Source: a virus. From it: a DNA stretch of 56,435 bases. Below are positions 6,350-33,817 of this stretch, in pieces. A model generated the notes under the pieces. The model saw only the letters and a program-made list of their open reading frames with translations, did no database searches and was not told the origin of the DNA. How positions within the stretch are numbered: the first letter of the stretch is position 1; each line of letters opens with the position of its first letter. The translations under genes were made by a program, and so were the position numbers. Location of the stretch: positions 1 through 56,435 of IMG/VR virus record IMGVR_UViG_3300042324_000950; one strand, written 5' to 3'.

Positions 6350-7948
6350 TTAGAAATCTATTTTTACTTGAATAACTTGTGAACCTAATCTTTCTAGTGG
6401 GGTTACTAATTTACCAAATACCAAAGCTTCTTTATTTGAATTTAATAAAGCAACTTCTGTAATTCTTGGGTTACCCGCCTTAGTTGGGTTTTGTGATGTT
6501 ACAAATTTACCTGTTGGTAAATTGGCGTTAAATATCATTTCAGCAATATCAGTTGATCTTACAACACTTACATTGCCTGGAAATGTTCTTTGATTACCAA
6601 AATATGGTGTAACACTTGTTGATGTGTAATCTGTACCTGTAACATAATCTGATAATACAAAGGTAGTTGCCGCATTATAAGCCGCTTGGGTAATTGTATA
6701 TGTATAACCTGACGATAAATGACTAGTAAATGATGTTCCATTATCTGTGGTAAAATCCATTAATTTCCAAGATTCAGGATTAGGTTTAGTACCATTATTT
6801 ACTATTTGTGCTAAAATGTGAAATTCATTTGCCGTGTATCCGTTATTTAAATTTGTAAAATCATTACTATTAAATTTAACTGCAATACTATGTGGTATTG
6901 TTTGTCCGGTGACTTTCATAAAGTAATTACATGGTAAACCATTTAAGGTGGAGCCAGTTCCATTTGATAACATATATGTTACATATATTGTTTTACCTGT
7001 TGTCAAATCCATTAACGGACTGTTAGTTACTACCGCATTTACTTTTGGTGCCGTTAATGTATAATTTCTTTTTGAGTTAACATCTAAAGCTGCAACAATT
7101 TCTTCATCGTCGAATACTATTGTTTTGTGATTATAAAATATCTTTCCTACTCTATTTGCAGTTGTTCCTGTACCATCAACTAAGTCTCTGTAATCAATTG
7201 TGAATCTTGAATGATAGTTAGATACCATCTGTTTAGTTGTTCCGCTCATGTAGAATGTTGCTCCGGCACTTGATGAGTGGTTTCTATGATACATTAATGT
7301 TGGTATTGTTACCTTAAAATAATCTTTATCTGATAATGAATTTGGATTTGGTGAGGTGTTTCCTGTGATTTGTGTACTTATATAATCGTCGTATTTAAAA
7401 AATCTATATGGATCGGCAGTAATACCACTTTGTGTGTAGTGTAATAGTGCAATACATTTTTGTTCTTCGGGGGTTATTGTTACAATTTCATTCATTGTAT
7501 TAACAATAGTTGTTCCCGTATTTTGTGTTTGACCTAATGAAGAGTTGTAACCTAAGAATTCTTTAGTTCCAGTATGTACATTACTAGTGTAACCAGTTAA
7601 GGCTCTTGAGTTTGTTGGTAAACCAATTGGTTTTTGGTCCCATACAACATTTACCGTCCACCCACTATCTGGGTCCATCACATTTCTACACGGTTGTAAA
7701 AATGACGATTGTACCGGAACACCATATAATGTTGACCCACTATTTGTATACCACAGTGGATATTTTACATTGACGTCTTTATCAAATGGTGCATATACGC
7801 TTTGAGTCGTTATTCCACTATAATTGTATTCTGAATCACCCACAGCAAAATAACTTATTACAAAATTACCTTTTGAAATAGCATCTCTACCTTTCTGTGT
7901 TAATCTTGCACCTACTGTTGCTGAAAAATTTGTATTTAAGAAACTCAT
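6350..7948 (-). CDS. Putative tail-collar / fibre-like virion protein, 532 aa
   Basis: Predicted structural protein. The N-terminus (ATVGARLTQKGRDAISKG, then YFAVGDSEYNY) and the C-terminus (ITEVALLNSNKEALVFGKL) resemble the two conserved ends of P2-type tail-collar fibre proteins, which begin with a 'T..G..AI..G' segment and an 'A.GD' turn. The middle is rich in T, S, N and G, as in beta-structured adhesins. It is the last gene of the baseplate/fibre block. TATTTATA lies four bases upstream of the ATG. Baseplate attachment or receptor binding is inferred from position and composition; the family assignment is tentative. Confidence 0.6.
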   Translation of the reverse strand: MSFLNTNFSATVGARLTQKGRDAISKGNFVISYFAVGDSEYNYSGITTQSVYAPFDKDVNVKYPLWYTNSGSTLYGVPVQSSFLQPCRNVMDPDSGWTVNVVWDQKPIGLPTNSRALTGYTSNVHTGTKEFLGYNSSLGQTQNTGTTIVNTMNEIVTITPEEQKCIALLHYTQSGITADPYRFFKYDDYISTQITGNTSPNPNSLSDKDYFKVTIPTLMYHRNHSSSAGATFYMSGTTKQMVSNYHSRFTIDYRDLVDGTGTTANRVGKIFYNHKTIVFDDEEIVAALDVNSKRNYTLTAPKVNAVVTNSPLMDLTTGKTIYVTYMLSNGTGSTLNGLPCNYFMKVTGQTIPHSIAVKFNSNDFTNLNNGYTANEFHILAQIVNNGTKPNPESWKLMDFTTDNGTSFTSHLSSGYTYTITQAAYNAATTFVLSDYVTGTDYTSTSVTPYFGNQRTFPGNVSVVRSTDIAEMIFNANLPTGKFVTSQNPTKAGNPRITEVALLNSNKEALVFGKLVTPLERLGSQVIQVKIDF

Positions 7949-12645: not shown

Positions 12646-15600
12646 TTAAGCAATTTCTTCCAAATCACTACAATCCATTAAACCTAACGATGCACACGGT
12701 GAAGTGTAATCACTACAAAATCCACCAGGTTCAGCTTTACATGAATAAGTAGTGCCACCACCACCTCCGCCACCAGTTGGTGGTACATAAGGGTCGTTAC
12801 CTCCACACCATTGGCTATTATCACATTTTCCACCTATTCCAACTACCATTCCAACATCTTCAACAAATTGGTATCCAGAAACACCATATCTATATGATGG
12901 TGATATGGTACTACAAATGTTAATTATTATACCTCCACCTGGACCAACAGCTTGTTCGAAATCACCATAAGGTCGAGTAACGTATGTATTATCAGTTTTT
13001 CTATATTCAATATATAAGTCTTGACCATTATTCGTTAACATACTTGTTGGGATGTAAATACTATAACAATTTCCTATACAAGCAGTAGTACTAACCACAC
13101 CACTAGTTGTAACACAACCATTAGCATCGGTAACTTCAAGACAGTACCCATATTCATCAATAGATGTGACAGATTGTGATGGTGAACCAGAAGTAACATT
13201 TGTATATGTTGCAACTAATGTACCTCCACAAGTATTATAAGGTGCTGACGTGTCAGCATATAATCTATATGTTTTAGGGAATGCTCCACCAGTTGATGAC
13301 AATGTAATTGCACCGTCCGCACCACCATTACAAGATGCATATGTATCAACTGTAATAGTTGCGGTTTGTTCTGCAGGTTGAGTAATTACTATTGTTGTAA
13401 TAACATTTACACAACCAGCTCCGTCTTTAACGTATATTGAATATGTCCCGATACTTAAATTACTGAACAAACCGCTTGATTGGTAATTTTCTCCGTCTCT
13501 TGAATAGGTATATCCAGAACCACTTCCGCCTGATGGACTTGATACGGTAATTGAACCGTTAGATCCACCATAACAACTTACATTAGCGGCTAATGTATTT
13601 GCGGTAGGTGCTGATTTAGTAATATTAACGTTTATTGTTGAAGATTCACAACCATTTGTGTCTCTCGCTTGTAGATTGTAGGATGTTGAACCTAAACTAC
13701 TAAATGTTCCGCTTGATTGCCAAGAACCACTGTTTATTCTAAATTGGTAATCTCCATTACCACCTCCAGCTGTTACGGTAATACTACCATTACCACCATT
13801 CCAACAAGTTGGAGCCGACGATGAAGATAATGAAATAGTAACCACAGCTGGTTGAGTTATTACAATGGAATACGTTCTTTCGCAATTGGCACTATCTTTT
13901 ACATATAATGTATATGTTCCTGCAGATAATGATGAGTAAGATCTAGATGTTGTTAAAACTTGGTATGTACCACCCGCATTTATTTTTGTAGAATATGGAC
14001 CACCTTGACCACCTGAAGGTGAACTAACAACTATATCACCATTACTATCACCATTACATGTAACATTTGTTTGTGTGTATGTTGCGGTTACTTGTGTTCT
14101 ATCTAGACCAGTTGTGTTTGTTCTAACGCAACCATCACTGTCTTTAACATATATGGTGTAAGTACCACTGCCTAGATTACTAAATGTTGTTCCGGCTTGA
14201 TAATTTGTACCATCTTTTGAATATGTGTAAGAACCGCTACCACCACTGGCACTAACAACTATACTACCATTAGTATCCCCAAAACAAGTTGGATTAGTTG
14301 TAGATAATGTTGAACTAACAATTGTAGGTTGTGTTACTGAAACAGATGTACTTCCAACTTCACCGTAAGAATCTTTAGCATAAATTGTGTATGAACCAGC
14401 TGTTAAGCTACCAAACACATTTGATACTTGATAATTTGTACCATCTTTAGAATATGTGTAATTTGCTGTACCTCCGACAACACCAGAAACTGTTATAGCA
14501 CCATTTGTTCCGCCGTTACATGTAACATTTGTAGTTGCAGATGCCGTTACTGATATTGTAACATCGGTAATACTAATTGTTATAGTTTTATCAAATGTTA
14601 AACCTGTACTATCGGTTACTCGTACTCTAATTGAGTATGATGATTTGGCTTCAAAGTTAAACACAACCGCACTTTTTAATACTCCCGATGCAATTGAGAA
14701 ACTACTGTTATCGGGATAAGTTGCAGTATCATGTAATGCAAATGTCATTGCACCACCTTCTTGGTCTGTAGCGGAGAATGTGCCTATTGTTGTTCCTGTT
14801 GGTACATTCTCTGATATTGAGGCTGAACTTAATGAGATGTCTGTTGGCGCCTCATTTACGTTTGTTATTGTAATTGTAAACGTTCCTTCATAATATAATC
14901 CACCAGCATCTGTTGTTCTTACTCTAATTGAATATGAATTTTTAACTTCACGATTAAACACAGATCCATTTCTTAAATTTGCACCACTAATATTAAATGA
15001 TGCATTATCTGTATCACCCGTACCCGCAACTAAACTATATGTAAAAGTATCTCCACTATCAACATCGGATGTTGAGAATGTTCCTATTGTTGTATTTGCT
15101 GTTGTATTTTCATCTTGTGATGCATTACTTAATGATAACGCGTATGGTGTTTCATTTACGTTATTAACATTAATTGTGAAAATTTTCGTAAATGTTTGAC
15201 CTGCACCGTCGCTAGTTCTAACTCTAATTGAATATGAAGTTTTCACTTCATAATTAGGTATTGTTGCATTTTTTAATATTCCTCCACTTGTTAAAGTAAA
15301 GCTAGCGTTGTCAGTATCACCAGACCCCGTAACTAAACTAAATGTATGTGTATCACTTTCATCAAGTGTAACAGCACTAAATGTTCCTATTGTTGTACCC
15401 GTTGCGGTATTTTCATTTATTGAATCATTACTTAATAAGATATCTGTTGGTGCAAAATTAGTTGTTGGACTCGGTGTTGGTGTAGGAGTAGGAGTTGCCG
15501 TTACGATATTTAAATCGATTTCAAAAGTACAATCACCCGTTACAGTTGGTGTAGGAGTAGGAGTTGCCGTTACGATATTTAAATCGATTTCAAATCTACA

Positions 15601-16395
15601 ATCATTTGTTGGTGTAGGAGTTGGTGTTGGTGTACTACTTGGTGTTGGAGTAGGAGTAGGGCTCGGGCTTGGTGTAGGGGTTGGAGTAGGAGTAGGGCTC
15701 GGGCTTGGTGTTGGGGTTGGTGTACTACTCGCTGTTGGTGTAGGTGTTGCAGTTACAATATTAGTATCTATCTCAAAATTACAATCACCGGTAGGTGTTG
15801 GAGTAGGAGTAGGTGTTGCAGTTACTACACTCAAATCAACACCAAAGTTACAATCTGGTGTAGGTGTTGGTGTTGGAGTTGGCGTTGCAGTTACAATTCC
15901 TAAGTCCACTTCAAAGTTACAATCTGGTGTAGGTGTTGGTGTTGGAGTAGGAGTCGCGGTTACAATTCCTAAATCAACATCGAAATTACAATCAGCTGTA
16001 GGTGTTGGTGTTGGAGTTGGAGTTGCGGTAATAAAAATTAATTCAATATCGAAATCACAATCCGGTGTAGGGGTTGGTGTTGCTGTTGCTGTTGGTGTAG
16101 GTGTTGCGGTTGGTACAGGAACTGGTAAGGAGTTAACTCTTATATCGTTTTCAATACCAACAGAACAAAAATTACCAGCAGCGTCGTATAGATAAATTCT
16201 TTCGGTGGTGTTTGGTACCTCAACTAAAACTCCGGTTCCCGTTGTTAATTGAGTGTATGTTAATCCAGTGGCAACTAATGTGCTACCTATTGGGTCAAAC
16301 AATAATGCAAGATTTCCCGCAGGTGGTAACGTAGAGTATATGCTATATATACTATTCGAAAATCCCACATCAATCCTTACATAAAAATATCTCAT
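12646..16395 (-). CDS. Giant modular adhesin: docking domain, Thr-Pro/CxFxVDL stalk, cadherin-like and SprB repeats
   Basis: 1249 aa with a clear domain train. Residues 1-90 are a globular head resembling the N-terminus of the 190-aa protein at 22518. Residues 91-312 are a Thr-Pro stalk interrupted by seven modules such as [13 protein letters not shown]. About 313-615 holds three cadherin-like repeats (each with APTDI-type start, GTTIGTFS, and NSYSIRVRT). About 616-1080 holds six SprB-type repeats ([15 protein letters not shown], then [11 protein letters not shown], then GSYTIYAKD). A Cys-rich C-terminal domain with a glycine run ends it. SprB repeats are typical of Bacteroidota surface adhesins. 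It is probably a tail fibre or receptor-binding protein assembled from host-derived modules. The short spacer after the preceding gene lacks TATTTATA. Confidence 0.82.
15460..16125 (-). repeat. Thr-Pro array with seven CxF-[DEG]-[VI]-D modules
   Basis: Encodes residues 91-312 of the adhesin. Seven single-cysteine modules are separated by TPTPT linkers: [78 protein letters not shown] and [13 protein letters not shown]. Third codon positions vary within the Thr-Pro codons, so the repeat seems constrained at protein level. Confidence 0.9.
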
Positions 16396-16407
16396 TTACT
16401 ATACCTA

Positions 16408-16623
16408 TTAGGAATTTTGTTTTATCCAATCATAACACTCGTTTATTGTGTGAAAAACATCACTATTATAACTGTTTTCATCATCAAATATGCAAACCAT
16501 ATAATCCTCGGATTCCGCGGCTTTAAATATGTTATATTCTTTATTTTCGATATTTTCAATTTCAATACTATTAGCCACATCGATTGTGTTATATAGTATA
16601 TTTGTCATTTCTTTTTGGTTCAT
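16408..16623 (-). CDS. Small hypothetical protein, 71 aa
   Basis: Acidic small protein (MNQKEMTNILYNTIDVAN, then MVCIFDDENSYNSDVFHTI, ending in ECYDWIKQNS). The C-terminal half looks like a small alpha/beta fold, but no family is recognised. The frame can be extended to a GTG at 16650 inside the upstream gene; I prefer the ATG at 16623, one base after the upstream TAA. Because it lies between two adhesin genes, a chaperone or accessory role in fibre assembly is conceivable but unsupported. Confidence 0.6.
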   Translation of the reverse strand: MNQKEMTNILYNTIDVANSIEIENIENKEYNIFKAAESEDYMVCIFDDENSYNSDVFHTINECYDWIKQNS

Positions 16624-16624
16624 A

Positions 16625-19600
16625 TTATACTGAAGGTGTTGTTGTATCACTATTATTAAATGTACCCGTATTTGTTGTTAAGTTGTAGGTTAAAGTTGCA
16701 ACTCTTTGTCCCGAAGTGCCCGAATTTGTTGTTTTTAGTGTTACTACTTTAGATACAGAATTAATTTGTTCTTTGGAAGTAAATGTTGTGTTATTAAACA
16801 CATAATTTGAAGGACCCGTCATGGTACCTCCTTTATATAATGTAGCAGCAACATTTACTGGATTAGTTCCCACAGTTACATACCAGAACGCTCTTAAGTC
16901 AATAACAATAGAAGTTTCGTTTGGATAGTCTTGTCTAAATTTAATTAAATTAACTAAAACCGATTCATAACCTGTTCCCTTATTATCTCCACCCCATCTT
17001 AATATTGCCGTTCCTGTTTCTGGCCATTGGAATTTCCTACCAAAACCGATATATGTTGATTGGGTTGTTTGGCCGATATTCGGAGTTACTACTCTGGTTC
17101 TCGTATCTAAATCGTTACCATTTGTAAATTGATACGTTAACGCAATATAATCTGCATCAAATGTAAATGTATTTTGACCTGTTGTAACTGTACCTGTTTT
17201 TGTACAATTATTAGCGTCGGTTACAGTAACAGTATAAACGGTGGCTGCCGTCAATCCACTTATTGTGTGTGTTGCGGAAGATATACCAGTATATGTTGTA
17301 CCAGGTGATGGTGACCAAGCATATGTATATGGTCCAGTACCATTTGCAACAGTAACCGTTGCGGTTCCATTATTACCACTTGTTGGATTGGTTGATGTAA
17401 ATGCTAATGTTAAATTACATGTTTGTGTAATCGTACATGTTGATCCAGTACCGATAACATATGTGATTTTATTTTTTGGGTTTTCGGATGTTATAGAATC
17501 TAAAACTAAACTCGTAATAGGTTCATTAAAATTAACTTGACTACCGAAAGGTATAAACGTTTTTGTTTCGGTTGCTGAAGACGTTACATTAAATGTTCCT
17601 GTTAACACATTACTAGTTGTATATGCTTTAACTACCATACTTACAGGGTTATGTAATGCGGTATCGTTACCACTAGACTTACCAATAATATAAAACCCTC
17701 TAGTGGCACTTGAAGTTTGGTAACCACAAAATTCACTAAGATTAATTGTTATTGTTTCTGATCTTTGATAATAAAATGTATCTGTCTCTATCCAATCAAT
17801 TAATGGTCTATACCAACCCGTTGCCGCCTCACTATATGAGGTTGTTGTAAAACCTGTGTATAGTTGGAAATCGTTTAATGTAGTTGGGGTTTTTATAAAT
17901 CCTTTTTTAAGTGATGTATTAGTATACAAACTATTTGGGTCAAACCCTTTTGTGTCTTCAATTGTATTGGTATAAATGTCAATAGAATTTTTATCAATTC
18001 CAGTTATATACCAATTACTTGAATAATCTAAATTTGTTGTTACGATTGGTTGACTTGTTGTTGTGGTTGTACTATTTGAATTTTGCATTAAATAAATTCC
18101 ATCTATAGTACCATTTGTTGTGTGATAAAAAGTGCGATATGTTGATGTTCCCGATATTGCGTAATAACCATCTAATACTTTTTGACAACCATAATCGTCA
18201 TAATAAAGTTTTTTACCTATTGCGGCTCCTCCAGTTCTTGCATCATATAATACTGAAACATTTGTTGGGTTGGTTTCCACTTTTAATTCATGTGTAAAAT
18301 TAGAATCTAATACTCCCACATTATTTTCACTAAATGGTGTACAATATCTACCCGCGTTTTGTGCGTATGTAACCAAAGAACTAAGTTTTTTAGTTGCTTT
18401 AGCGTTTGCGTCGTTTTGACTTATACAACTAAATTCACTTCCAGACTCCACAGTTAGAACCGTAGATTGTCCAGTTTCTAAATCACAACAACTATTATTA
18501 ACTGTTTGTGTTAATGTTGTATCATTATAATAAATTGTTCCGTTACCACAATATGGTAATGGTTTACCACTTGTATATGATAGAATTACTAATTTATTGA
18601 AATTTGTAACTAAAGTTGGGTCGTCCGCTTTTACTGAATATTGAAATTCAAATGTAATTGGGTCATCGTTTACGATTGCATTTGTATATGATAATTCTTT
18701 AGATGTTATTTTACCTCCACTTTGTTGGTAGTAATAAACTCCATCGCAATAATATCCATTATTAATAGTTGATAAAGTAATATCTCTATAAAGGATGGTA
18801 TCATTTCCTGTTGCACTTATTTCAATGTATGGTTTATTTGTAAAATGATGTAAAAATTTCTTACATGGTTCTCTAAATGTTGTTGTTCTATTTGAAAAGA
18901 TTAATAAAAGAATGGCTGTAATTAAAATTGCGGCCGCTAAGTAAGGTATCGCCACGTTTAAAAATGCAGTTGCTTTACCACCTAATATTAACCACTTTGG
19001 TACTAAATTTCCAATTAAATAATCAAAATAATGAGCAACAACTTGACCTATAGTAGCGTATGTTGCAGTTGATGAGGGTAATAACATTCCAATACCTAAA
19101 ACACTTGTACCTAACGCCCACTCATTTAATTTCCATTCTGTGTTATAGCCACTCACAATACCATATAATGTTTTTGATAAAGCGTGTGTGGCACCAACAA
19201 TTGGGTTTGATGTTTTTGTTGCTTTACTGTATTGTGTAAAAACACTATCATTTGACAATACTTTATTTGTTTGATTAAATCCCAAATAATAACGATATTG
19301 TTGTGGTTGTGATAATGCCGATGTATTAAATATTTCTCTTAGTTTACCAACCCCCTCCATAAATGGAACGGTACACGCGTCAGATGTTTGGTCGTTAGAA
19401 TAAAAAAATGATGTGGGACCTATTGTCTCTTCGGTTGCTTTTGCCTTACCAAAAAGTTTCTTTTTTACTGTGACTTGGGTTTGTGTTCCATAAGATCTAT
19501 CGAATGGTCCACCAACTTTATAAACTTTAGTACCATAACCATAATAATATGGTAATGCGGGATTTTCAAAATATGGACCACCCCATATTGGTGTGTCTGT

Positions 19601-20170
19601 TGTCCAATTTTCAATCGATATTATTGAATATAATTTTGTTTTTAATTTCGATGTGGCAGCAATCGCATCATAAGGTGAATAAACGTGTAATCCAGTTTCA
19701 TATTGATATAGTGATGTTGTACAATCATAAGACAATGTGATACTTGACGTACTGGGAGGAGTGTTGTATTTCCCTATCGCCATATTAATATTTAAAACGG
19801 ACGATTTATTTGTTTGGTCTCCATTTACGATTACATAAAATGTTTTTGTTCCACTTGTTTTATCATTTAAAATAATATTTTCAAGTGGTGCATCAAATCT
19901 AGACATTTTATATAATGAATTTTGATCTGTTGAAACCGAAACATATCCTTTATTTGGGTCGGAAAAATTTATTGAGACATAATCAATAACACCAGTATAT
20001 GAAACTTCAAATTTTAAATAACCATAATTTTTATTACCTAATTGTAACGATTTAGTTATGTTGGCAAATTTCATATTACTAGGAAATGACCCAACATCAC
20101 TATATGATGGTTTGTTCGAAGTAAAATCTGTCGATACAAAATTTGTTGTTACTGTATTACTATATGGCAT
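16625..20170 (-). CDS. Large tail protein with membrane-type helix and SprB-like domain, 1181 aa
   Basis: Virion-type protein in the adhesin block. The N-terminal 400 residues are beta-rich. Residues about 404-426 (VAIPYLAAAILITAILLLIF) form an unmistakable transmembrane-type helix flanked by basic residues (NRTTTFREPCKK). The C-terminal part has a SprB-like repeat (about 955-1020, with 'TGPYTYAWSPSPG' and 'VYTVTVTDANNCTKTG') and a final domain containing ILRWGGDNKGTGYESVLV and VIDLRAFWYVTVG. A hydrophobic helix in a tail protein may insert into a membrane during infection or be buried in a trimer. TATTTATA lies four bases before the ATG. Confidence 0.72.
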   Translation of the reverse strand: MPYSNTVTTNFVSTDFTSNKPSYSDVGSFPSNMKFANITKSLQLGNKNYGYLKFEVSYTGVIDYVSINFSDPNKGYVSVSTDQNSLYKMSRFDAPLENIILNDKTSGTKTFYVIVNGDQTNKSSVLNINMAIGKYNTPPSTSSITLSYDCTTSLYQYETGLHVYSPYDAIAATSKLKTKLYSIISIENWTTDTPIWGGPYFENPALPYYYGYGTKVYKVGGPFDRSYGTQTQVTVKKKLFGKAKATEETIGPTSFFYSNDQTSDACTVPFMEGVGKLREIFNTSALSQPQQYRYYLGFNQTNKVLSNDSVFTQYSKATKTSNPIVGATHALSKTLYGIVSGYNTEWKLNEWALGTSVLGIGMLLPSSTATYATIGQVVAHYFDYLIGNLVPKWLILGGKATAFLNVAIPYLAAAILITAILLLIFSNRTTTFREPCKKFLHHFTNKPYIEISATGNDTILYRDITLSTINNGYYCDGVYYYQQSGGKITSKELSYTNAIVNDDPITFEFQYSVKADDPTLVTNFNKLVILSYTSGKPLPYCGNGTIYYNDTTLTQTVNNSCCDLETGQSTVLTVESGSEFSCISQNDANAKATKKLSSLVTYAQNAGRYCTPFSENNVGVLDSNFTHELKVETNPTNVSVLYDARTGGAAIGKKLYYDDYGCQKVLDGYYAISGTSTYRTFYHTTNGTIDGIYLMQNSNSTTTTTSQPIVTTNLDYSSNWYITGIDKNSIDIYTNTIEDTKGFDPNSLYTNTSLKKGFIKTPTTLNDFQLYTGFTTTSYSEAATGWYRPLIDWIETDTFYYQRSETITINLSEFCGYQTSSATRGFYIIGKSSGNDTALHNPVSMVVKAYTTSNVLTGTFNVTSSATETKTFIPFGSQVNFNEPITSLVLDSITSENPKNKITYVIGTGSTCTITQTCNLTLAFTSTNPTSGNNGTATVTVANGTGPYTYAWSPSPGTTYTGISSATHTISGLTAATVYTVTVTDANNCTKTGTVTTGQNTFTFDADYIALTYQFTNGNDLDTRTRVVTPNIGQTTQSTYIGFGRKFQWPETGTAILRWGGDNKGTGYESVLVNLIKFRQDYPNETSIVIDLRAFWYVTVGTNPVNVAATLYKGGTMTGPSNYVFNNTTFTSKEQINSVSKVVTLKTTNSGTSGQRVATLTYNLTTNTGTFNNSDTTTPSV

Positions 20171-25091: not shown

Positions 25092-26887
25092 TAGCAATCA
25101 AAATTAGGTGGAGTCAATCCAAGAGGTTTATTGTTATATTGTCTCTCATTTCTTAAATATAAGTTGATGTCTGTTCTAACATAATGTGTACCGTTTGTGA
25201 ATGGAAACTTAGTTCCATTACCATCCACATCTATATATCCGTGGTCATATAGGTCTCTCCATCTCCAAACCTTTTCATTTGTGTCGAACGTAACATTTTC
25301 AGGTAAATTATAGATATCGTTTGTTGCCGCACTTTCTAAATAAGGTGACAATTGTCTTAGTTTAACTCTGTGAAATGGTTGATAATACAATCCAATTGGA
25401 TTGTTTGCGGTCGCACCTGAGTATAAAGGTCCATTTGGGTCACTATTATCTTGATTGTGATTAAATCGTGTTATTGGTGCTGTAAATTTATGATACGACT
25501 CACTAATTATTCTTTCTTTAAGTTCAATTGAATTATATTCAACGAATGCACCTGTAAGACCTGTTGTACCAATAGGTATAACATCTCCGGGTGTGAATCC
25601 TGAAACTCCTGACCTGCTAGTGAATGTTGTACCTGTCGGTATTTTAGTTTCTGTGTTCCCCGTTGTACTACCACTAAAATGTTCATCTATCCAACTATTA
25701 TGAAAATTAAATTTATGTCCTACTTTTGGTGGGTAATTAAAATAACCTTGCCCATTTTTATAAATGGTGGTTACATATACTTCTGTTGGTGTGTATCCTA
25801 AATTATTCGTTAAACCTGTTAATATAAAAGGTTCTTTGAAATCAAATAAAACAGATTCCATTCTATTTCTTTCAACTAAAACATCATTCTCTCCTGAGAA
25901 ATTTTCAAATATTAATTTCTTTTCATCTTCCCATATTGGTGTTTCAAATCCAACCTTATCCAAAATATATGAGTTCGCATCTGTTAGTGTTTTATGTTTA
26001 TGTACATAATATTTAGATGTTGACCCGTTTATATTATTTCTATCTAAAACTCTTTTTCCCACCATAACATTTGTAAAAGTGGTTCCCGATTTTAATTGAT
26101 TTTTTAAAATATTAATGACGTAATTTTGTGAATTATGAAATTCATTTCCTATGGTATTAATATAAAATGTTCTACCTGTTGTTGTTCCTGTTAAAGTAGT
26201 TCCTGAGAGTGTAATATATTCACCCGCCTTCATCCCATGTTCAACAGGACTTGTTAATTCGTACATTGTACCTCCACTATATGAAACCCTAAATGGAATT
26301 CCATCACCCGCTTTAAAATTTCGTATAATATTAGTTCCTTCTGTTTTTGTTGCTCCTGATAGTGTATACGTCATTGTATACCCCGAATCACTACCATAAA
26401 CATAACTTAAATAAACGTTCCAATTTTGATATGGTGCCGTTATTGGTGTTACAATCGTGTGTCCCGTTGGTCCTACTAATTTAAAATGTGCTTGCGTATA
26501 TCCTGTTAATGTTGTACCTGTTTGTGGTTCATTATATTCTCTAACAACATCTCTTCTTAATAATGCAAATTCATCGTAAGGTAAAAATCCTGTGTGGTCT
26601 GTTGTTGTTCCATTACCAACCAAATATAATCTATCTTTTAAATAAGTGTAATCCGTGTTACCACTATACATGTTACGGAAAACCATTTTTATTTTACCAA
26701 AAATTTTATATTTTTTACTTTCGTTTCTTTCCTTGTCGTATAATTTATCAATATCTAAAATAATATCTCTATCACCGATTCTCATTAATGATTCGGTTGT
26801 TTCAAGATTTAATCTTAAATCTAATTCTTCTGTATCCGCTTTTTTAAATCTCTTACTTGGTAAGAGTATTTTTTTATTCTCTTCCAT
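25091..26887 (-). CDS. Putative baseplate wedge / tail protein, 598 aa
   Basis: No named family recognised. The first 110 residues include a helix-forming basic segment (MEENKKILLPSKRFKKADTE), and the rest is beta-rich with many Gly-Thr pairs (GYTQAHFKLVGPTGHT, VEHGMKAGEYITLSGTTLTG). It is coupled at both ends by TAATG overlaps, to the 1529-aa protein upstream and the 639-aa protein downstream, so these three are probably made in fixed ratio. Its place two genes after gp6 corresponds to gp8 in T4, but sequence support for a gp8 fold is lacking. Confidence 0.62.
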   Translation of the reverse strand: MEENKKILLPSKRFKKADTEELDLRLNLETTESLMRIGDRDIILDIDKLYDKERNESKKYKIFGKIKMVFRNMYSGNTDYTYLKDRLYLVGNGTTTDHTGFLPYDEFALLRRDVVREYNEPQTGTTLTGYTQAHFKLVGPTGHTIVTPITAPYQNWNVYLSYVYGSDSGYTMTYTLSGATKTEGTNIIRNFKAGDGIPFRVSYSGGTMYELTSPVEHGMKAGEYITLSGTTLTGTTTGRTFYINTIGNEFHNSQNYVINILKNQLKSGTTFTNVMVGKRVLDRNNINGSTSKYYVHKHKTLTDANSYILDKVGFETPIWEDEKKLIFENFSGENDVLVERNRMESVLFDFKEPFILTGLTNNLGYTPTEVYVTTIYKNGQGYFNYPPKVGHKFNFHNSWIDEHFSGSTTGNTETKIPTGTTFTSRSGVSGFTPGDVIPIGTTGLTGAFVEYNSIELKERIISESYHKFTAPITRFNHNQDNSDPNGPLYSGATANNPIGLYYQPFHRVKLRQLSPYLESAATNDIYNLPENVTFDTNEKVWRWRDLYDHGYIDVDGNGTKFPFTNGTHYVRTDINLYLRNERQYNNKPLGLTPPNFDC

Positions 26888-29800
26888 TATTCAGCTGATG
26901 GGAAGGCTCCTTTTGGCCCATAATATTTTATTAATGCATCTAATGATGTCTTATCGGGTCTCAATCCAAAGTAAAATAAGAATGGTGTTGATAATACTTG
27001 TTTTCTTCCATCATAATTTGTTTGTGTTTGAAATAGAAAAGTTTCTCTATAATCTTTAACGTACTTGTCGGGTTGTTCGACCCACGTTTTATTTACCACA
27101 ACATATGTTGTACCACTAGCCGGATTTTTTACCCATACCGATGTGTCAATTGTAAATCCAGATTGTACGTGTAACCAAATATCGCCCTCAACATTCGTAT
27201 ATTGAGCAGCATTTGCTGTAGTATTTGGTGCATTTAAACTAATATTTTCAAATCTTTCCAACATATCTGTTGTATTACCCGTAAATGAATATTGTGGGTG
27301 AGTTATTGTCATTGGTTTTAATAAGTATTCTTCTTCACCATCTGCCATTAAATAATTTGTTTCAGTTGCGGTAGCACCACTTATTGAAAACATTCTTTGT
27401 AATTTCATTGATGCAATTGATGTTCTATCCCATTGTTGATCATCTTCATCGGTACTATAACTACCAAATCCTGTTCCCTTTTTATCCCACAAATAGAATG
27501 GCACCTTTTGTGAATAATCACCCAATCTAAAATTTAAACATTGTCTTATAAATGAACCATTTGTATCTAATTTTAAATCTATTGGTGTTGGTCCAAATGT
27601 TCCTGTCGGTTTGAAAAAAGATGAAAAATAATCATCTTCCGGATCCATTAATTCACCATTATAAATAAAATAATGTGGACTATCTAAATCAAACCCTTCA
27701 ATACCTGCCTCACAATTTATTGACATTAATTGGGTTATGTCTCCGTCAAATCCCCCAACATTGGAACCCATTCCAGCTCCACTAAAGAAATCACCAACAT
27801 CAAATTTGCCACCATTTATATCTAATCTATAATTTATTGCATATTCTACAATATTTGCAGGGTCTTGATATGAAGTTGTATTAACATCTCTAATTACAGA
27901 ACACGTTGGGTCAATTCTTGGATCTTGACATATTTCATATAAAAATTCATCTCTAACCCCCACGTCATAAAATGTTGTTGGGTGTAATATTTCTTTATAG
28001 ACACTATTTGAATTTGGTTTTTGTCCGATGAATCCACCTGTGGTTCCGGTTATTGGAACGTATGGTGTTGCCCTATAATAAAATTGTTGGTCAAGTATAT
28101 TATAAAAAACTAACTCTCTTGGGTATTTTGAACCTCTTTGATTTAAATCTAAAACATTTACATCGTCCCATTTTATTCTCTTATCAAATTTAAAAAAGTA
28201 TAGTACACCATTTAACCAGTTATCAATGAACGAATAATTTGTTACTCCACCACAAAAGAAAACACCAACTCTTTTTCTTCGATACCATTCCTTTATTACT
28301 GATTGATTTTTAGATGTACCGTTAATAACAGGAACAATTGTAACGACACCATCTCTAATTTCAGTTAATCCTGATTTTGTTTTTTTAGAATATGTATTAT
28401 CTCCACCCTCTAAATCTGCAACATTCGGTAGTCTCCTTGTGGTTGTGTCACCAGCAATGGCGGCCACTAAAGTATAATTCGAACCAGGACTTGTTAACGA
28501 TTCACTATATGCTGAATTAGTATAAAATGGTTTTCCCAATTGGTGAAATGAGTTAACCGTTCTACCCTCATCATATGTTACACGTTTTGTTGCTTTGTAC
28601 CATTGGGTCCCATTAGTATTACCCGCGTTTGATACATCAGTTGCGGTACCATATCCTCCAGATGATGACCATAGATATGTTAATACATTAGTTTCATCAT
28701 AAAATTTATCATACTTTGCACATCCTTGTTCAATTACTAGTTGACCTAACGCCCCCGTTGTTTTCAAACTTCCCTTATCATAAAGTCTAACAACGGCATA
28801 TAAGTCCCTTATTCCATCAATACCTCCACTAGAATAATCTACACCGGCATATGTTGACCATTGATCATAGGATATCTTAATTGCTGGTCGGTTTTCATAT
28901 GATACTCCTCCACCTGTATTATATGGTCTATATGTGTCCGGTGTAATTGAACTAACTCTTTCATAACTTTCTAGTTGTGTAGAACCTCCTCCACAATCTA
29001 TTAATTGTAATGTTGAATTAGTGCTACCTGTTTGTCCACTATAAATTGTTACCGTTTGTGTTCTATATGTATAATCACAATTATTTCTAATTAAAAGTTC
29101 AACTTCAATATCTTCCGTTGCGGGAATTGCTCCTCCCGCTACGTCAACGTATTCAGCATAAACACTTTGATTAGGAATAACCGTAATTTTTACAGAGTTA
29201 CCCGTATTTGTTGGTGATGTTACGTTAACTAATTGAAAATATGAATTTAATTGTCCGTCTACAAATGCGGAATTAAATTCTGTAAACATATCATTAAATG
29301 TGTCTGTGGATGGGTCAGTACCAGCTAGCGGATAAATTCCACCAACAAATCTTCTTTCTGATGTTGCGTTTGGATTTGAGTATGTATGTAATAATGTAAT
29401 CTGACTTTCGGTTATTCCAGTTGCACTAGTTTCTTTTGCCGACTCACCAGCATATAATTCAGTTAAAAATGTTGTACCTGTTGTTGTACTTGTATTTAAA
29501 TAGTTTGGTGTTTGTCCTGACAAATAAACCAAATAAATATATCCTTCATATGGTACAACTATAGTTTTAATCTCCGCACTTCTATTATATAAACTAAGAT
29601 TACCACCACCAGAATTTTGAGTTGCACTATCAACATCGGTTGTACATTCCTCACAATCGGGGTATGTTGTTAATGGTAATATTGTTTGACCCCCCTCTTT
29701 TACCCTCATTGCAAATTCCCTTAATCCCACACCAATTCCCATTAAATAGTGTTTACCCAAAAATTTAAATGCCATGGCCGCACCACCCACATTCCACATA

Positions 29801-31476
29801 ACTCTACCTATAGTCTCAAAAACAAATATCTGTACAATTGTAAAAATATATTGTACGAATAGTAAAACTTCAGATAATATCAGTCCAAATTTTATTCTAT
29901 TTCTAAATGCAAAATTGGTTGGGAAATAATTAGCTTTACTTGTACAATCATCTTCTGTATTTGGTCTAATTTCTTTTAAACCTAAAAATGCATCTCTTCT
30001 TGAAAGTCCTAAAAATGATTCTCCCGCAGATACTTCGTAGTGTGTTCCCTGAAAAGATGAAACCGTATAGACTTTACCAAAAATAAATTTATAAAAAACA
30101 TCTTGTGGAACACCTAAATCACAACCAGTACACGTACCCAACATAAATGATTTTTTGTCATTTTGATATGTTGTTGACATTGTTGAACCAGTTGTTCCCT
30201 CAGGCCAAGCAATTTTTAAATAATCTTCGAACACGTCAGAAAATTGGTATGTTGTTAATAAGTCTTCATTATACTCACCTAAATCATTCTGACCATATGT
30301 GTTTGAGTTGTATTCTCTAATTTGTGGTACTAAATAATTTGCGGTTCCCGTTTTTTCATTGTTACCATCAAGTGAAAATTTAAATCTAGCAATTGTAGTT
30401 GTTGGTATACCTTTGTTTGTGTCGTTGGTGATTTCTTGTTCGCCAAATTCATTTGTAAAAACATATTCCAAGTTCATTGGTAATACAACCATTGCCGCAC
30501 CATCTTCATCAATAGTTTCAGATGGATTAAAATATTCTAATTGAGGGTATAATGTGGTCCCGTTTGAACCATAAACTTTTTTACCTGTGTATCTAACTGC
30601 GGAAATTTTACCTTCGGTAGTTTGTAGATTACATTTGTAACCAGTATTTCTTCTGATAACCCCATTTCTTTTTACGGCATCTCCATTATCGTCTGTAATT
30701 GTAGATGTTAAAATTAATGATATAGGTTCGATTCTAATACCACTTTGTGATATGTCATAATCAACCCTTGATATACCTATTTCACATAAATCAAGATTTC
30801 CCCAAAACGGGAAAACTTCAATAGTTCTATCGTATTTGATAATTTGTGGTAACCCATCTATATCTGAACTTGATTTAAATTCATAGTATCTTTCAAACTT
30901 CTCAATACCTTCTCCTCTTTTAATAAAGTCATAAGGTCTTAATGAGAAACAACCAATATCAGATAAATCTAAGTCGACATGTAATGTTTGTTTACCCACC
31001 GGCACACCCCAAATCATGAAGTCACCCGATTCGTTAGTCTTAACGGTGTATCTATAATAATTTTCGTATACTTCTAATACTTCCTCTCTTGTTAAAATAT
31101 CCGATTGATCTGGAAAGGTTCCTGTTGGTTTGTGTCCACCATGTTGTTTTCTTGCTGGTAACAAATTATATCTATAATTGTCATCATTTTTATCTGAAAC
31201 TTCGGTGTAAGGATATAACGCAGAAATTATGGGGTCGGTTGAATCTGCTTCGGTTTGAGGTACAAATATTGATACTCTAACATTAGGTATTCCAAATCCG
31301 TCATTCGCGGTAATTCTACCACAAACCACCCCATAGTCCGCACAAAGTGATGTATAAACATCTGTTTGTGAGAATTTTAAGGATAAAATTTCCAGTTGGT
31401 CGTAGTCTTGTTTTAATTCGACAGTGACCTTCTGTTCTTTACCGATATTTGTTGAAATTCTATGTTTTTGCATCAT
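26887..31476 (-). CDS. Giant baseplate wedge-position protein with carboxypeptidase-regulatory-like domain, 1529 aa
   Basis: It occupies the position of T4 gp7, directly after gp6, but is larger than T4 gp7. Residues about 48-170 look like a carboxypeptidase-regulatory / transthyretin-like beta sandwich (VCGRITANDGFGIPNVRVSI, then TNESGDFMIWGVPVGKQTL). Residues about 528-588 contain a long hydrophobic stretch (LILSEVLLFVQYIFTIVQIF) followed by a second weaker one (GGAAMAFKFLGKHYLMGIG). The remainder is beta-rich with paired cysteines (TCTGCDLG, PDCEECTTD). Probably a wedge or peripheral baseplate protein, inferred from position and size. Two consecutive ATG codons stand at 31476; a TATTTATT variant lies six bases upstream. 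Confidence 0.68.
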   Translation of the reverse strand: MMQKHRISTNIGKEQKVTVELKQDYDQLEILSLKFSQTDVYTSLCADYGVVCGRITANDGFGIPNVRVSIFVPQTEADSTDPIISALYPYTEVSDKNDDNYRYNLLPARKQHGGHKPTGTFPDQSDILTREEVLEVYENYYRYTVKTNESGDFMIWGVPVGKQTLHVDLDLSDIGCFSLRPYDFIKRGEGIEKFERYYEFKSSSDIDGLPQIIKYDRTIEVFPFWGNLDLCEIGISRVDYDISQSGIRIEPISLILTSTITDDNGDAVKRNGVIRRNTGYKCNLQTTEGKISAVRYTGKKVYGSNGTTLYPQLEYFNPSETIDEDGAAMVVLPMNLEYVFTNEFGEQEITNDTNKGIPTTTIARFKFSLDGNNEKTGTANYLVPQIREYNSNTYGQNDLGEYNEDLLTTYQFSDVFEDYLKIAWPEGTTGSTMSTTYQNDKKSFMLGTCTGCDLGVPQDVFYKFIFGKVYTVSSFQGTHYEVSAGESFLGLSRRDAFLGLKEIRPNTEDDCTSKANYFPTNFAFRNRIKFGLILSEVLLFVQYIFTIVQIFVFETIGRVMWNVGGAAMAFKFLGKHYLMGIGVGLREFAMRVKEGGQTILPLTTYPDCEECTTDVDSATQNSGGGNLSLYNRSAEIKTIVVPYEGYIYLVYLSGQTPNYLNTSTTTGTTFLTELYAGESAKETSATGITESQITLLHTYSNPNATSERRFVGGIYPLAGTDPSTDTFNDMFTEFNSAFVDGQLNSYFQLVNVTSPTNTGNSVKITVIPNQSVYAEYVDVAGGAIPATEDIEVELLIRNNCDYTYRTQTVTIYSGQTGSTNSTLQLIDCGGGSTQLESYERVSSITPDTYRPYNTGGGVSYENRPAIKISYDQWSTYAGVDYSSGGIDGIRDLYAVVRLYDKGSLKTTGALGQLVIEQGCAKYDKFYDETNVLTYLWSSSGGYGTATDVSNAGNTNGTQWYKATKRVTYDEGRTVNSFHQLGKPFYTNSAYSESLTSPGSNYTLVAAIAGDTTTRRLPNVADLEGGDNTYSKKTKSGLTEIRDGVVTIVPVINGTSKNQSVIKEWYRRKRVGVFFCGGVTNYSFIDNWLNGVLYFFKFDKRIKWDDVNVLDLNQRGSKYPRELVFYNILDQQFYYRATPYVPITGTTGGFIGQKPNSNSVYKEILHPTTFYDVGVRDEFLYEICQDPRIDPTCSVIRDVNTTSYQDPANIVEYAINYRLDINGGKFDVGDFFSGAGMGSNVGGFDGDITQLMSINCEAGIEGFDLDSPHYFIYNGELMDPEDDYFSSFFKPTGTFGPTPIDLKLDTNGSFIRQCLNFRLGDYSQKVPFYLWDKKGTGFGSYSTDEDDQQWDRTSIASMKLQRMFSISGATATETNYLMADGEEEYLLKPMTITHPQYSFTGNTTDMLERFENISLNAPNTTANAAQYTNVEGDIWLHVQSGFTIDTSVWVKNPASGTTYVVVNKTWVEQPDKYVKDYRETFLFQTQTNYDGRKQVLSTPFLFYFGLRPDKTSLDALIKYYGPKGAFPSAE

Positions 31477-31530: not shown

Positions 31531-33363
31531 TTAGTATGTAGTCGTTCCTGAAGGTTTAGTTGCCACCCTTATATCACTATTTGGGAATCTGATTTGGAAT
31601 ATTTGATTTGACTGCATAAAGACCGTCGTATCAATTTGTTGTATTTCTTTAGTTGTTGTATCTATATATGATTGTGATACTTCAGATGATGAGTATTTAC
31701 CACCAATTTTATTAAATACCTTAATTCCCACTACGTTAACAACACCATAAATTGAACCAATTTCTCGAATTAAATCTCCCACAAATAATGGGTCACCCAT
31801 TTTACGTTTGTCAATGGCGAAGAACATTATTGATGTTTGAATTACTTGTTTAATAACGTCCGTTGGGTTTTCGTTTTTATTAATTACCAAATTAATATCT
31901 AATCCTAAGTCAATAACTTGCCCATTTGCAACTTCAATATAATCATTAATCATTCTATATTCTGAAAGATAATTTAATATATTGTTTTTCAATGTATTAG
32001 ATATTACATCGGTTAGATTACCTTGGTCATCATAAGATAATAATTTTACTCTAACCTTATTATCTTCCTCCATTACATTAACTTTAGCGGGTGCTCCGTA
32101 TGTGGATGGCATTGTCTCAATTAATGACTTATAATCATTTAATGTTACCGCTCTATTTTGTGCTGCAAAATTATAAGAAACCATGTTTCTAATTTCTTCG
32201 ATTGTAGGTTGGTCTGCACCACCTACAGCTGCCGTTACATTATTAACTCTTAAAGATAATTCAACTTGTGAATTAATTGCGTTATTAGGACCATTTATGT
32301 TAAATTCAACACTATCTACACTTGTAATGATATTAACCCCTAAATTCGAATCTTTACCCCCACCAATACGATATTTCACAAACAATGTGGTGTTTGCTTT
32401 AGGTATTGACCCTAATGACATATTGTTTAAATAATTAGCCAAGTTAACTTTTAATTGACCTGTCATGTAATTGTCTAAATTCTCTAGTGGGTCAACGGAA
32501 CCACTACCAAAAGTTAATGAAAAATAACTTTCAGGTGTATATTCTGTATAGAATTTACTATTAACTTGTAAGTAAGTTCCTGCCCTAAAATTGTCTTTAT
32601 CGGATACTGAAGTTGGGTCTTCTATGAATACTTTATCTTGTATTAACGACTTAACTTCGTACCATTTATTTGTTGATGCGTTAAATTCAGAAGCTGTTGG
32701 GTTGGTCCCAAAAGATGTTCCTTCTTTGTGTATCACTCCTACCACACCTAAAACATTTTGTTCAGGTAAGAAAAGTCTTAAAAAAGGTTTTTGGTCTAAT
32801 TCACTTATTACTCTTCGGTATATTCTTGTTACTCCATTAACCACAGGTTCTCTCTTTGTGATTGTATAAGAAACTAAAATATCATTACCATCGAAGTTTG
32901 GTATTTTTAATCTATTTGGTTCTCCCTTATTGTTAAATGGACTTGAGAAATCGATATCATTAATTGTTTCAAATATTTGTCCTCCTCCTGAAACTTGAGC
33001 ACCAATCCTTAATGTTCCCAAATATCTTTCATCTTCCTTATCACCTCTAACAGGTACATTTATTGAAAAATCACACAGCGCTACCGATGGTCTTGTTCCA
33101 GGAATTTTTATACCATATGTTTTGGCAATATTAAATAATGATTGTCTTTGTTGTGCAAAATCCAACATAGTTTCTTGCCAAACCCTATCAATGTGAAAGT
33201 GTAAGTTATCTGCAACCGCAGCATTTAAATCTAATAAAACGGAGAATATTGACGCATCATTGGTATTTTTAACCAAATCAGGATAATATTCTTTTGTTAG
33301 ATTTACTAATTCTTGTCTTAGTCCTGCAAAATCTCTAGTTGCGTATGATATTTTCTTAGCCAT
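31531..33363 (-). CDS. 6: Baseplate wedge protein gp6-like
   Basis: Baseplate wedge subunit of 610 aa, matching T4 gp6 in length class and position next to gp25. The N-terminal signature YATRDFAGLRQELVNLTKEY, followed by DASIFSVLLDLNAAVADNL and a helix starting FHIDRVWQETMLDFA, is characteristic of gp6-like wedge proteins that form the ring around the hub. The C-terminal half carries the J-like segments (AAQNRAVTLNDYKSLIETMP, later KRKMGDPLFVGDLIREIGSI). It begins one base after the gp25 stop, so both are co-translated. Confidence 0.88.
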   Translation of the reverse strand: MAKKISYATRDFAGLRQELVNLTKEYYPDLVKNTNDASIFSVLLDLNAAVADNLHFHIDRVWQETMLDFAQQRQSLFNIAKTYGIKIPGTRPSVALCDFSINVPVRGDKEDERYLGTLRIGAQVSGGGQIFETINDIDFSSPFNNKGEPNRLKIPNFDGNDILVSYTITKREPVVNGVTRIYRRVISELDQKPFLRLFLPEQNVLGVVGVIHKEGTSFGTNPTASEFNASTNKWYEVKSLIQDKVFIEDPTSVSDKDNFRAGTYLQVNSKFYTEYTPESYFSLTFGSGSVDPLENLDNYMTGQLKVNLANYLNNMSLGSIPKANTTLFVKYRIGGGKDSNLGVNIITSVDSVEFNINGPNNAINSQVELSLRVNNVTAAVGGADQPTIEEIRNMVSYNFAAQNRAVTLNDYKSLIETMPSTYGAPAKVNVMEEDNKVRVKLLSYDDQGNLTDVISNTLKNNILNYLSEYRMINDYIEVANGQVIDLGLDINLVINKNENPTDVIKQVIQTSIMFFAIDKRKMGDPLFVGDLIREIGSIYGVVNVVGIKVFNKIGGKYSSSEVSQSYIDTTTKEIQQIDTTVFMQSNQIFQIRFPNSDIRVATKPSGTTTY

Positions 33364-33364
33364 T

Positions 33365-33817
33365 TTAAATGTTTAGTATTATAAAGTCCGAAGATGAAAA
33401 TGCTCCGTTATTAACCGTATATTCAATTTTCACTACTGCGGTGTGTGGTTTAGTTGTATTGTCAGAAACCCTAAATAATCTCTCATCTTCATCTTGACTA
33501 AATGTTCTAACAGTATCAGGGTCATCTTCTGCAGACATAACATCTAATTTTGTTATATCTAAATTTGGAATGTATTTTTTAACGGATTCTCTTATTTCAT
33601 CTTCAATTAAATCGAATGTAACACTATCGTTTTGGTCAAAGATATATAGGTATAATCTTGAACCAAAATCGGGTAAGAAATAACGACTACCTCTTCTTGT
33701 CAATAAAAGATGTATAAGATTCGCTCGTACTTCTCTTTCGGGTGTTGTTGTTAATTTAACATAATCACCCTTTAAACTATCTCTAAATGGGAAATCAATT
33801 CCATATGTTATCGCCAT
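33365..33817 (-). CDS. 25: Baseplate wedge protein gp25-like
   Basis: Baseplate wedge/sheath-initiator subunit of the gp25 family, 150 aa. The conserved core LIHLLLTRRGSRYFLPDFGS contains the family's R-G and PDFGS motifs, followed by IEDEIRESVKKYIP, the typical amphipathic helix. gp25 nucleates tail-sheath assembly on the baseplate in T4. The C-terminal 50 residues (after DVMSAEDD) are an extension forming additional strands. TATTTATA lies three bases before the ATG, and a terminator separates the gene from nrdA upstream, so it heads a late operon with gp6. Confidence 0.92.
   Translation of the reverse strand: MAITYGIDFPFRDSLKGDYVKLTTTPEREVRANLIHLLLTRRGSRYFLPDFGSRLYLYIFDQNDSVTFDLIEDEIRESVKKYIPNLDITKLDVMSAEDDPDTVRTFSQDEDERLFRVSDNTTKPHTAVVKIEYTVNNGAFSSSDFIILNI

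Follow-up and report, generated by a model that had tools for sequence, protein, structure and literature searches.

A Membrane-Grade Hydrophobic Helix in a Tail Adhesin Family and a Predicted Amphipathic Hairpin in a Second Giant Tail Protein of Phages with Presumed Bacteroidetes Hosts

Do the strongly hydrophobic segments of large phage tail proteins enter a host membrane during infection, or do they stay buried in protein? The question is raised by the virus record IMGVR_UViG_3300042324_000950, analysed here over its complete length of 56,435 bases (the window), which encodes two giant proteins with such segments. One is an 1181-amino-acid (aa) tail adhesin (16625-20170, minus strand) composed of a predicted beta-rich N-terminus, a hydrophobic block, a DUF5977-like part, and a phrog_24956-like C-terminal module. 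The other is a 1529-aa tail-cluster protein (26887-31476, minus strand), described from its open reading frame (ORF), its alignment, and its PHROGs-annotated neighbours, and adjoining a gp6-type gene. Their hydrophobic segments are different features, separated by polarity, helical moment, and length. Judged from sequence, two conserved parts of the adhesin enclose, at one fixed place throughout the family, a block that closes with a uniformly hydrophobic helix of some 20 residues; in most members, at least one hydrophobic segment of lesser strength comes before this helix. For the 1529-aa protein, a helical hairpin is predicted that is amphipathic, keeps its polar positions fixed, and has invariant cysteines on its flanks. 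The reading favoured here, tentatively and with a probability of roughly 0.43, is that the virion keeps the adhesin block shielded until receptor contact, upon which the block enters the outer membrane, and that the 1529-aa hairpin packs against protein.

Hydropathy of the Two Segments

Hydropathy was measured on the Kyte-Doolittle scale in a 19-residue window (KD19). The peaks of the 1181-aa protein (2.69 at residue 406) and of the 1529-aa protein (2.08 at residue 530) are the top two values among the 35 translated window proteins, followed by those of a 103-aa protein (1.98) and the ribonucleotide reductase small chain (1.75). Shuffles of the same composition reached the observed peak in 4/5000 cases for the 1181-aa protein and in 394/5000 for the 1529-aa protein, and the latter peak alone is therefore not remarkable. 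In a preliminary description of this DNA, strong hydrophobic helices had been placed at about residues 404-426 in the 1181-aa protein and about 528-588 in the 1529-aa one. The former is borne out, encoded at 18893-18961 and well above chance, whereas the latter is present but only weakly above chance.

The same description had called such segments unusual in baseplate and fibre proteins, which holds for the 1181-aa protein only. The background set consisted of 107 de-duplicated plus-strand ORFs of at least 500 aa from 140 listed loci, reference loci L083-L086 included; 5/107 of these other ORFs reach KD19 1.6, and the single one (1/107) that reaches 2.0 is T4 gp7, a wedge protein. T4 gp7 peaks at 2.07 (residue 886), close to the 2.08 of the 1529-aa protein, although the two show no profile similarity, and its record carries the annotation “C-terminus is predicted integral membrane domain”. 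It is nevertheless a wedge-protein chain in deposited baseplate structures (5hx2, 5iv5, 5iv7, and others), and one published account lists it as a monomer in solution (PMC3004832). The case of T4 gp7 indicates that a KD19 of about 2.1 in a baseplate protein is weak evidence for membrane contact.

The best 21-residue stretches set the two families apart more clearly. The median helical moment is 0.09 in the adhesin family versus 0.27 in the 1529-aa family, and the median number of charged or amide residues is 0 (range 0-2) versus 3. Crude insertion energies, calculated from scale values under a simplified weighting by position and serving to rank the families only, not as true energies, have medians of -1.1 and 1.8, respectively, with values of 0 or below in 26/34 adhesins versus 3/69 members of the 1529-aa family.

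Hydrophobic Block of the Tail Adhesin

Relatives of the adhesin were collected in three viral scans, one by protein and two by alignments, the final one listing 34 loci. The set comprises the window protein and 33 relatives, with near-duplicates within it (L134/L135, L136/L137, L143-L145, L090/L094, and L088/L093 among others); L087, which matches the window at 100%, was excluded, and L082 represents L091 of the same contig. The alignments of this study, A1, A3, A4, and A5, contained 30, 51, 10, and 23 sequences, respectively.

A KD19 peak of 2.02-3.71 lies shortly before a P-Y-I-like motif in 34/34 adhesin sequences, the motif being P-Y-I or P-Y-L in most of them, A-Y-L in L139, P-F-L in L141, and P-Y-M in L147. 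The end of the helix sits 18-28 residues ahead of this anchor column (PYI) in 23/23 aligned adhesins. In the window protein, the block spans residues 343-427 (18890-19144, minus strand) and closes with the transmembrane-grade helix (residues 404-426, minus strand), whose best 21 residues include no charged or amide residue; a conserved anchor follows right after it at residues 434-449 (EPCKKFLHHFTNKPYI; 18824-18871, minus strand). The block is variable in length and has the lowest sequence identity of the family, with a mean pairwise value of 19-20% among the 23 aligned adhesins versus 30-44% in other parts. At least two hydrophobic segments were found in the block of 31/34 adhesins with a lenient cut-off, and one only in the window protein, L131, and L140; across the family, the hydrophobic stretch could accommodate one or two helices that span a membrane. 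A fixed place and a fixed hydrophobicity, combined with a loose sequence and the lack of a polar face, make up the pattern of a lipid-facing segment, which suggests that the adhesin helix is of membrane type.

Within the family, L096 and L097 (adhesin residues about 355-555) have an Ala-, Gly-, and Ser-rich block of about 230 residues, with a helix made almost only of Val, Ile, Leu, and Ala (KD19 3.7). No published account of the adhesin hydrophobic element turned up in the open-licence PubMed Central literature, among the matches listed.

Amphipathic Hairpin of the 1529-aa Protein

Relatives of the 1529-aa protein were taken from one viral scan, in which the best 80 of 155 confirmed stretches represented 77 loci. 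The alignment of residues 515-611 runs from N-Y-F-P-T-N-F-A-F-R-N-R through a long helix and a second helix to Y-P-D-C-E-E-C. An AlphaFold2 (AF2) monomer model of the relative L035 (residues 46-1245, 51 sequences) has a mean predicted local distance difference test score (pLDDT) of 72.5 and predicts a helix-turn-helix, with a first helix of 39 residues at 494-532 (pLDDT per ten-residue block from 491: 60, 87, 90, 88, and 72) and a second one at 542-561 (blocks of 80 and 89). Mapped from this model, the window protein would have a long amphipathic helix at residues 530-568 (29773-29889, minus strand), which carries the KD19 peak, and a second hairpin helix at about residues 577-596 (29689-29748, minus strand), both ahead of the YPDCEEC motif at residues 605-611 (29644-29664, minus strand) with the invariant Cys608 and Cys611. 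A helix of 39 residues has about twice the membrane-spanning length, and charged or amide residues are found at residue 536 in 95%, at 542 in 90%, and at 554 in 98% of 41 non-redundant sequences. Cys511, Cys608, and Cys611 are present in 71/71 rows and Cys919 in 72/72 (the window, L001 as its own copy, and near-identical contigs are among the rows), and the four may form a knot, through metal or disulfides, where the hairpin has its base.

The preliminary description had proposed that both segments may insert into a membrane. For the adhesin the proposal is supported at the level of sequence, with a membrane-type segment predicted in 34/34 members at a place fixed in 23/23 aligned ones. For the 1529-aa protein, its amphipathic character, its polar positions, and the outcome of the energy comparison (3/69) argue otherwise: the helix is more likely buried in protein, and its insertion into a membrane is disfavoured.

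After the CEEC motif, 58 members carry an insert of 19 residues (13 members), 163-227 residues (27), or 304-314 residues (18), which looks like a displayed domain swapped in and out; in the window it lies at residues 613-917 (28726-29640, minus strand). The N-terminus (residues about 46-250) is predicted to hold a transthyretin-like or carboxypeptidase-regulatory domain (Z 9.2 over 81 residues, middling Z values being common), and a weak CarboxypepD_reg match there falls below the cut-off. A Foldseek search with the 1529-aa model gave two matches at E <=0.001, a Bacteroides adhesin and teneurin. T4 gp7 was absent among the fold matches listed, which proves nothing for the barely covered parts. 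The one clear relative in BFVD is A0A8S5LA66 of Myoviridae sp. ctPuP5 (29% identity); tblastn against the phage collection gave no relative of the 1529-aa protein, and sequence searches of solved structures gave none for the adhesin or the 1529-aa family (E up to 10 and up to 1). Kinship with a helix of LR756508 (L085, residue 444), aligned by eye, was dropped because the resemblance in register had no profile support (probability 0.1) and the surrounding domain matched a 999-aa window protein instead.

Probable Location of the gp7-Type Domain

In the preliminary description, the 1529-aa protein was a wedge-position protein. The label reflects position only, as its gene (26887-31476) lies next to that of the 610-aa gp6-type baseplate wedge protein (31531-33363, minus strand; PHROGs), and no homology to gp7-type proteins was detected. 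In hhalign comparisons with T4 gp7 or with gp7-position proteins, the 1529-aa family reached probabilities of 0.1 to 1.6, and the best probability among 35 window proteins or families compared with the T4 gp7 family was 2.6%, in a 153-aa protein. The gp7-position proteins of Flavobacterium phage immuto (1265 aa), Microcystis phage Mel-JY01 (1336 aa), and LR756508 (1400 aa) are encoded two or three ORFs after the gp6-type genes, and their families are mutually related (E 1.1e-38, 8.3e-53, and 4e-47). By profile they are unrelated to the 1529-aa protein; the domain that they contain is present in the 999-aa protein of the window (7984-10983, minus strand).

When the 33 window proteins of at least 100 aa were compared with 13 profiles, the best probability exceeded 10% for two only, the 999-aa and the 532-aa proteins. 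The former matched gp7-position proteins with a probability of 90.5 in the screen of single families, and of 95.8 (E 7.5e-9, 227 columns; one comparison, no database) against the three gp7-position families combined, where the 1529-aa protein stayed at 0.1. In the segment common to both, the window family has Y-R-R-I-L-x-N-L-A-x-L-Y-K-S-K-G-T, and the relatives of immuto have K-R-I-Y-H-N-L-P-L-L-L-K-S-K-G-T. K-(S/T/A)-K-G-T occurs in 24/24 printed rows of the 999-aa family (the window and near-identical rows included) and in 20/20 comparison proteins, and the K-G-T segment, located in K-S-K-G-T at residues 449-453 of the 999-aa protein, is taken here to be a mark of the gpI/TssG/gp7 class. The direct match of the 999-aa family to the T4 gp7 family is not significant (probability 1.6, E 0.03, gp7 732-788 with 999-aa 445-503; 0.6 in the other comparison). 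The gp7-type domain thus appears, from these profiles, to lie in the 999-aa gene, about 20 kb from the gp6-type gene, and the giants among the mostly large tail genes between the two would be other tail parts. The 532-aa protein (6350-7948, minus strand) matches a 219-aa tail-cluster protein of immuto with its N-terminus (probability 76.2) and, weakly, a 337-aa protein of the same phage with its C-terminus (probability 25).

Modules, Gene Contexts, and Distribution of the Adhesin

The adhesins consist of a conserved core to about residue 907 followed by Pro/Thr-rich linkers and variable ends. Among 23 adhesins, matches to DUF5977 were found in 10, to cadherin in 3, and to SprB in 2; in the window protein, the DUF5977 (PF19404) match at residues 547-598 scores 24.7, just below the curated cut-off of 25. 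DUF5977 is counted among the stalk domains of bacterial fibrillar adhesin-like proteins (PMC8286594). With its gene in the tail cluster, a modular stalk, and a variable end, the 1181-aa protein has the character of a tail adhesin, with a putative role in receptor binding. Its C-terminal module (residues 1006-1171; 16658-17155, minus strand), assigned to phrog_24956, is common to proteins of Synechococcus, Xanthomonas, and Stenotrophomonas phages (29-33% identity). An 80-aa gene (16408-16650, minus strand) overlaps the 3' end of the adhesin gene, and its homologue in L003 follows a protein sharing only the C-terminal part of the adhesin; this small gene may go with the C-terminal module rather than with the hydrophobic block.

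At least one neighbouring ORF resembling a window protein was found for 31/33 adhesin relatives, with none for L136 and L138. Immutovirus-like tail genes stand beside the adhesin in 15/33 relatives, 11 of them with a homologue of the 219-aa protein, and others have window-like neighbours, so that the adhesin helix is found across two tail-gene contexts. In 14 records, the adhesin was detected in 7, the 1529-aa family in 13, and both in 6; in a further 12 adhesin records (L097 counted again), the 1529-aa family was detected in 1 and a gp6-type gene in 9. These records are partial contigs, in which a miss does not show absence. The adhesin is probably one interchangeable tail module.

Matches of the whole-adhesin profile on giant and other proteins of records without a detected adhesin were not counted, as they fell on low-complexity Pro/Thr linkers with strong bias (profile positions about 986-1388, where a range was shown). 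Smaller proteins with strong hydrophobic peaks occur in these stretches, namely, a 407-aa protein of L149 (2.59) and a 478-aa protein of L154 (2.94). The three large fibre or spike genes of Flavobacterium phage immuto encode no such helix (KD19 1.08-1.27). Relatives of the adhesin in bacterial genomes were not confirmed among 45 pattern matches. In tblastn searches of the phage collection, the adhesin was matched only by its C-terminal module (7 records), with three diverged adhesins unmatched, and a Foldseek search with the model of residues 1-699 gave no match at E <=0.001.

Next to the gp6-type gene lies that of a 150-aa gp25-type baseplate wedge protein (33365-33817, minus strand; PHROGs), and beyond both are genes for ribonucleotide reductase, a DnaB-like helicase, and further replication functions (PHROGs). 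Proteins distantly related to the gp6-type one, at 25-28% identity over 98%, occur in Flavobacterium phage immuto, Microcystis phage Mel-JY01, and an uncultured 484-kb phage. A neighbour of the adhesin, a 1249-aa protein (12646-16395, minus strand), contains cadherin domains as well as SprB repeats. A gliding-motility adhesin of Flavobacterium bears the name SprB, and the phage protein may mimic or bind gliding adhesins of the host. The host is likely a member of the Bacteroidetes.

Proposed Mechanism and Alternative Explanations

In the favoured reading, the hydrophobic block would be shielded inside an oligomeric adhesin in the free virion, receptor contact would expose it and lead to its insertion into the host outer membrane, and insertion would make the attachment irreversible beside the contracting tail; the 1529-aa hairpin would pack against other protein within the tail and not enter a membrane. 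A comparable step has been proposed for phage T5, in which, after receptor binding, a 46-residue hydrophobic stretch of pb2*, compatible with two helices, would enter the outer membrane (PMC10038345). The likeness lies in a hydrophobic stretch of a tail protein with proposed outer-membrane insertion after receptor binding, for the adhesin as a matter of sequence anatomy only. However, pb2* is a tape measure protein inside a siphophage tail, whereas the block described here belongs to an adhesin, and the phage has baseplate genes of the gp6 and gp25 types. A fuller formulation, in which the tail adhesin of T4-like phages with presumed Bacteroidetes hosts hides a hydrophobic hairpin, fusion-peptide-like in its logic, that enters the outer membrane once the receptor is bound and anchors or opens this membrane for the contracting tail, is considered rather unlikely.

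Several observations weigh against the favoured reading. On the side of the adhesin, 8/34 members fail the crude insertion-energy test, and the AF2 monomer model of residues 1-699 (10 alignment rows) is, with a mean pLDDT of 48.7, too poor to judge burial in a soluble core. The family was not detected in 7/13 records with the 1529-aa family, some of which are fragments, and the downstream giants (1956-3429 aa) in five records of that family without a detected adhesin peak at KD19 1.13-1.49, so the hydrophobic element is not general in the clade. On the side of the 1529-aa protein, the polar-face vector over residues 530-565 is marginal (permutation p 0.05), and the mean entropy of these residues (1.75) exceeds that of the whole protein (1.37). 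In addition, a long helix lines the proposed outer-membrane pore of DEV gp73 (PMC10925440), and a membrane role of the 1529-aa hairpin is therefore still conceivable. The identity of the hairpin is 38% (530-568) and 28% (569-599), versus 46-80% in the other parts measured (41 non-redundant sequences). A contrast between a sequence-conserved hairpin and an unconserved adhesin helix was accordingly withdrawn, the hairpin being also among the least conserved parts of its protein; the two families differ in overall divergence, and their identity figures are not directly comparable. Because the hairpin, too, is looser than its flanks, low identity alone does not discriminate lipid contact, whereas the absence of polar positions does; for the same reason, confidence in the favoured reading and in its fuller formulation was lowered, and that in burial of both segments was raised.

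The latter explanation, akin to the shielding inside oligomers that the preliminary description had also considered, is that each segment forms the hydrophobic core of a soluble oligomer; the adhesin helix would lie at the centre of a trimeric bundle, wrapped by the beta domains, and would never meet lipid. It is a serious contender, if a doubtful one. T4 gp7, a wedge protein found in solved baseplates, has a segment of comparable hydropathy, conserved adhesin parts flank the block on both sides, the protein must be soluble before adsorption, and the 1529-aa hairpin, taken as buried, is likewise less conserved than its flanks. It does not account easily for an adhesin helix without a polar face (median moment 0.09; 0-2 charged or amide residues) or for KD19 values of up to 3.7 over 19 residues in some members. 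If the block did reach the membrane, an oligomer of it might form an outer-membrane pore for the tail tube or for DNA, the DNA channel of the preliminary description, for which the T5 precedent, with six helices discussed (PMC10038345), and the presence of at least two hydrophobic segments in 31/34 adhesins could be cited. This is improbable, as the strong helix shows no pore-lining polar face and the family was not found in the 7/13 records mentioned above, some of them fragments. Moreover, contractile tails push a rigid tube through the membrane, and an adhesin-borne channel would be unneeded.

It is just as improbable that the 1181-aa protein belongs to the membrane of the infected cell and not to the virion, serving, for example, in surface display or in the exclusion of other phages. 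A transmembrane-grade helix would suit that role, and no virion proteomics for the clade turned up, in a literature search not aimed specifically at it. However, the N-terminus (MPYSNTVTTNF) shows no signal peptide by eye, the gene has window-like neighbours in 31/33 relatives and Immutovirus-like tail neighbours in 15/33, and the Pro/Thr linkers, the variable ends, and a C-terminus like proteins of other phages are features of a tail protein. For the 1529-aa protein, a role as the gp7-type wedge protein, with the hairpin as a core-bundle helix of a (gp6)2-gp7 module, might be suspected from its gene directly after the gp6-type gene and from its predicted hairpin, the core bundle of XM1 gp17 being a helix-turn-helix (PMC10457771). 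By profile, the family matches neither T4 gp7 nor the gp7-position families of immuto, Mel-JY01, and LR756508, which match the 999-aa protein with its K-S-K-G-T instead (probability 95.8, E 7.5e-9), and this assignment is very improbable.

Implications for Phage Attachment

To our knowledge, little is understood of how contractile-tailed phages that have bound reversibly become irreversibly attached at the outer membrane, and hardly anything for phages of Bacteroidetes. A fixed, predicted membrane-grade element in an adhesin family of two phage lineages offers a concrete and testable candidate for irreversible attachment. The baseplate map would be corrected as well, with the gp7-type domain in the 999-aa gene and not in the giant beside the gp6-type gene. 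If the proposed role of the adhesin block is true, myophages would have a membrane-insertion step independent of the tape measure protein.

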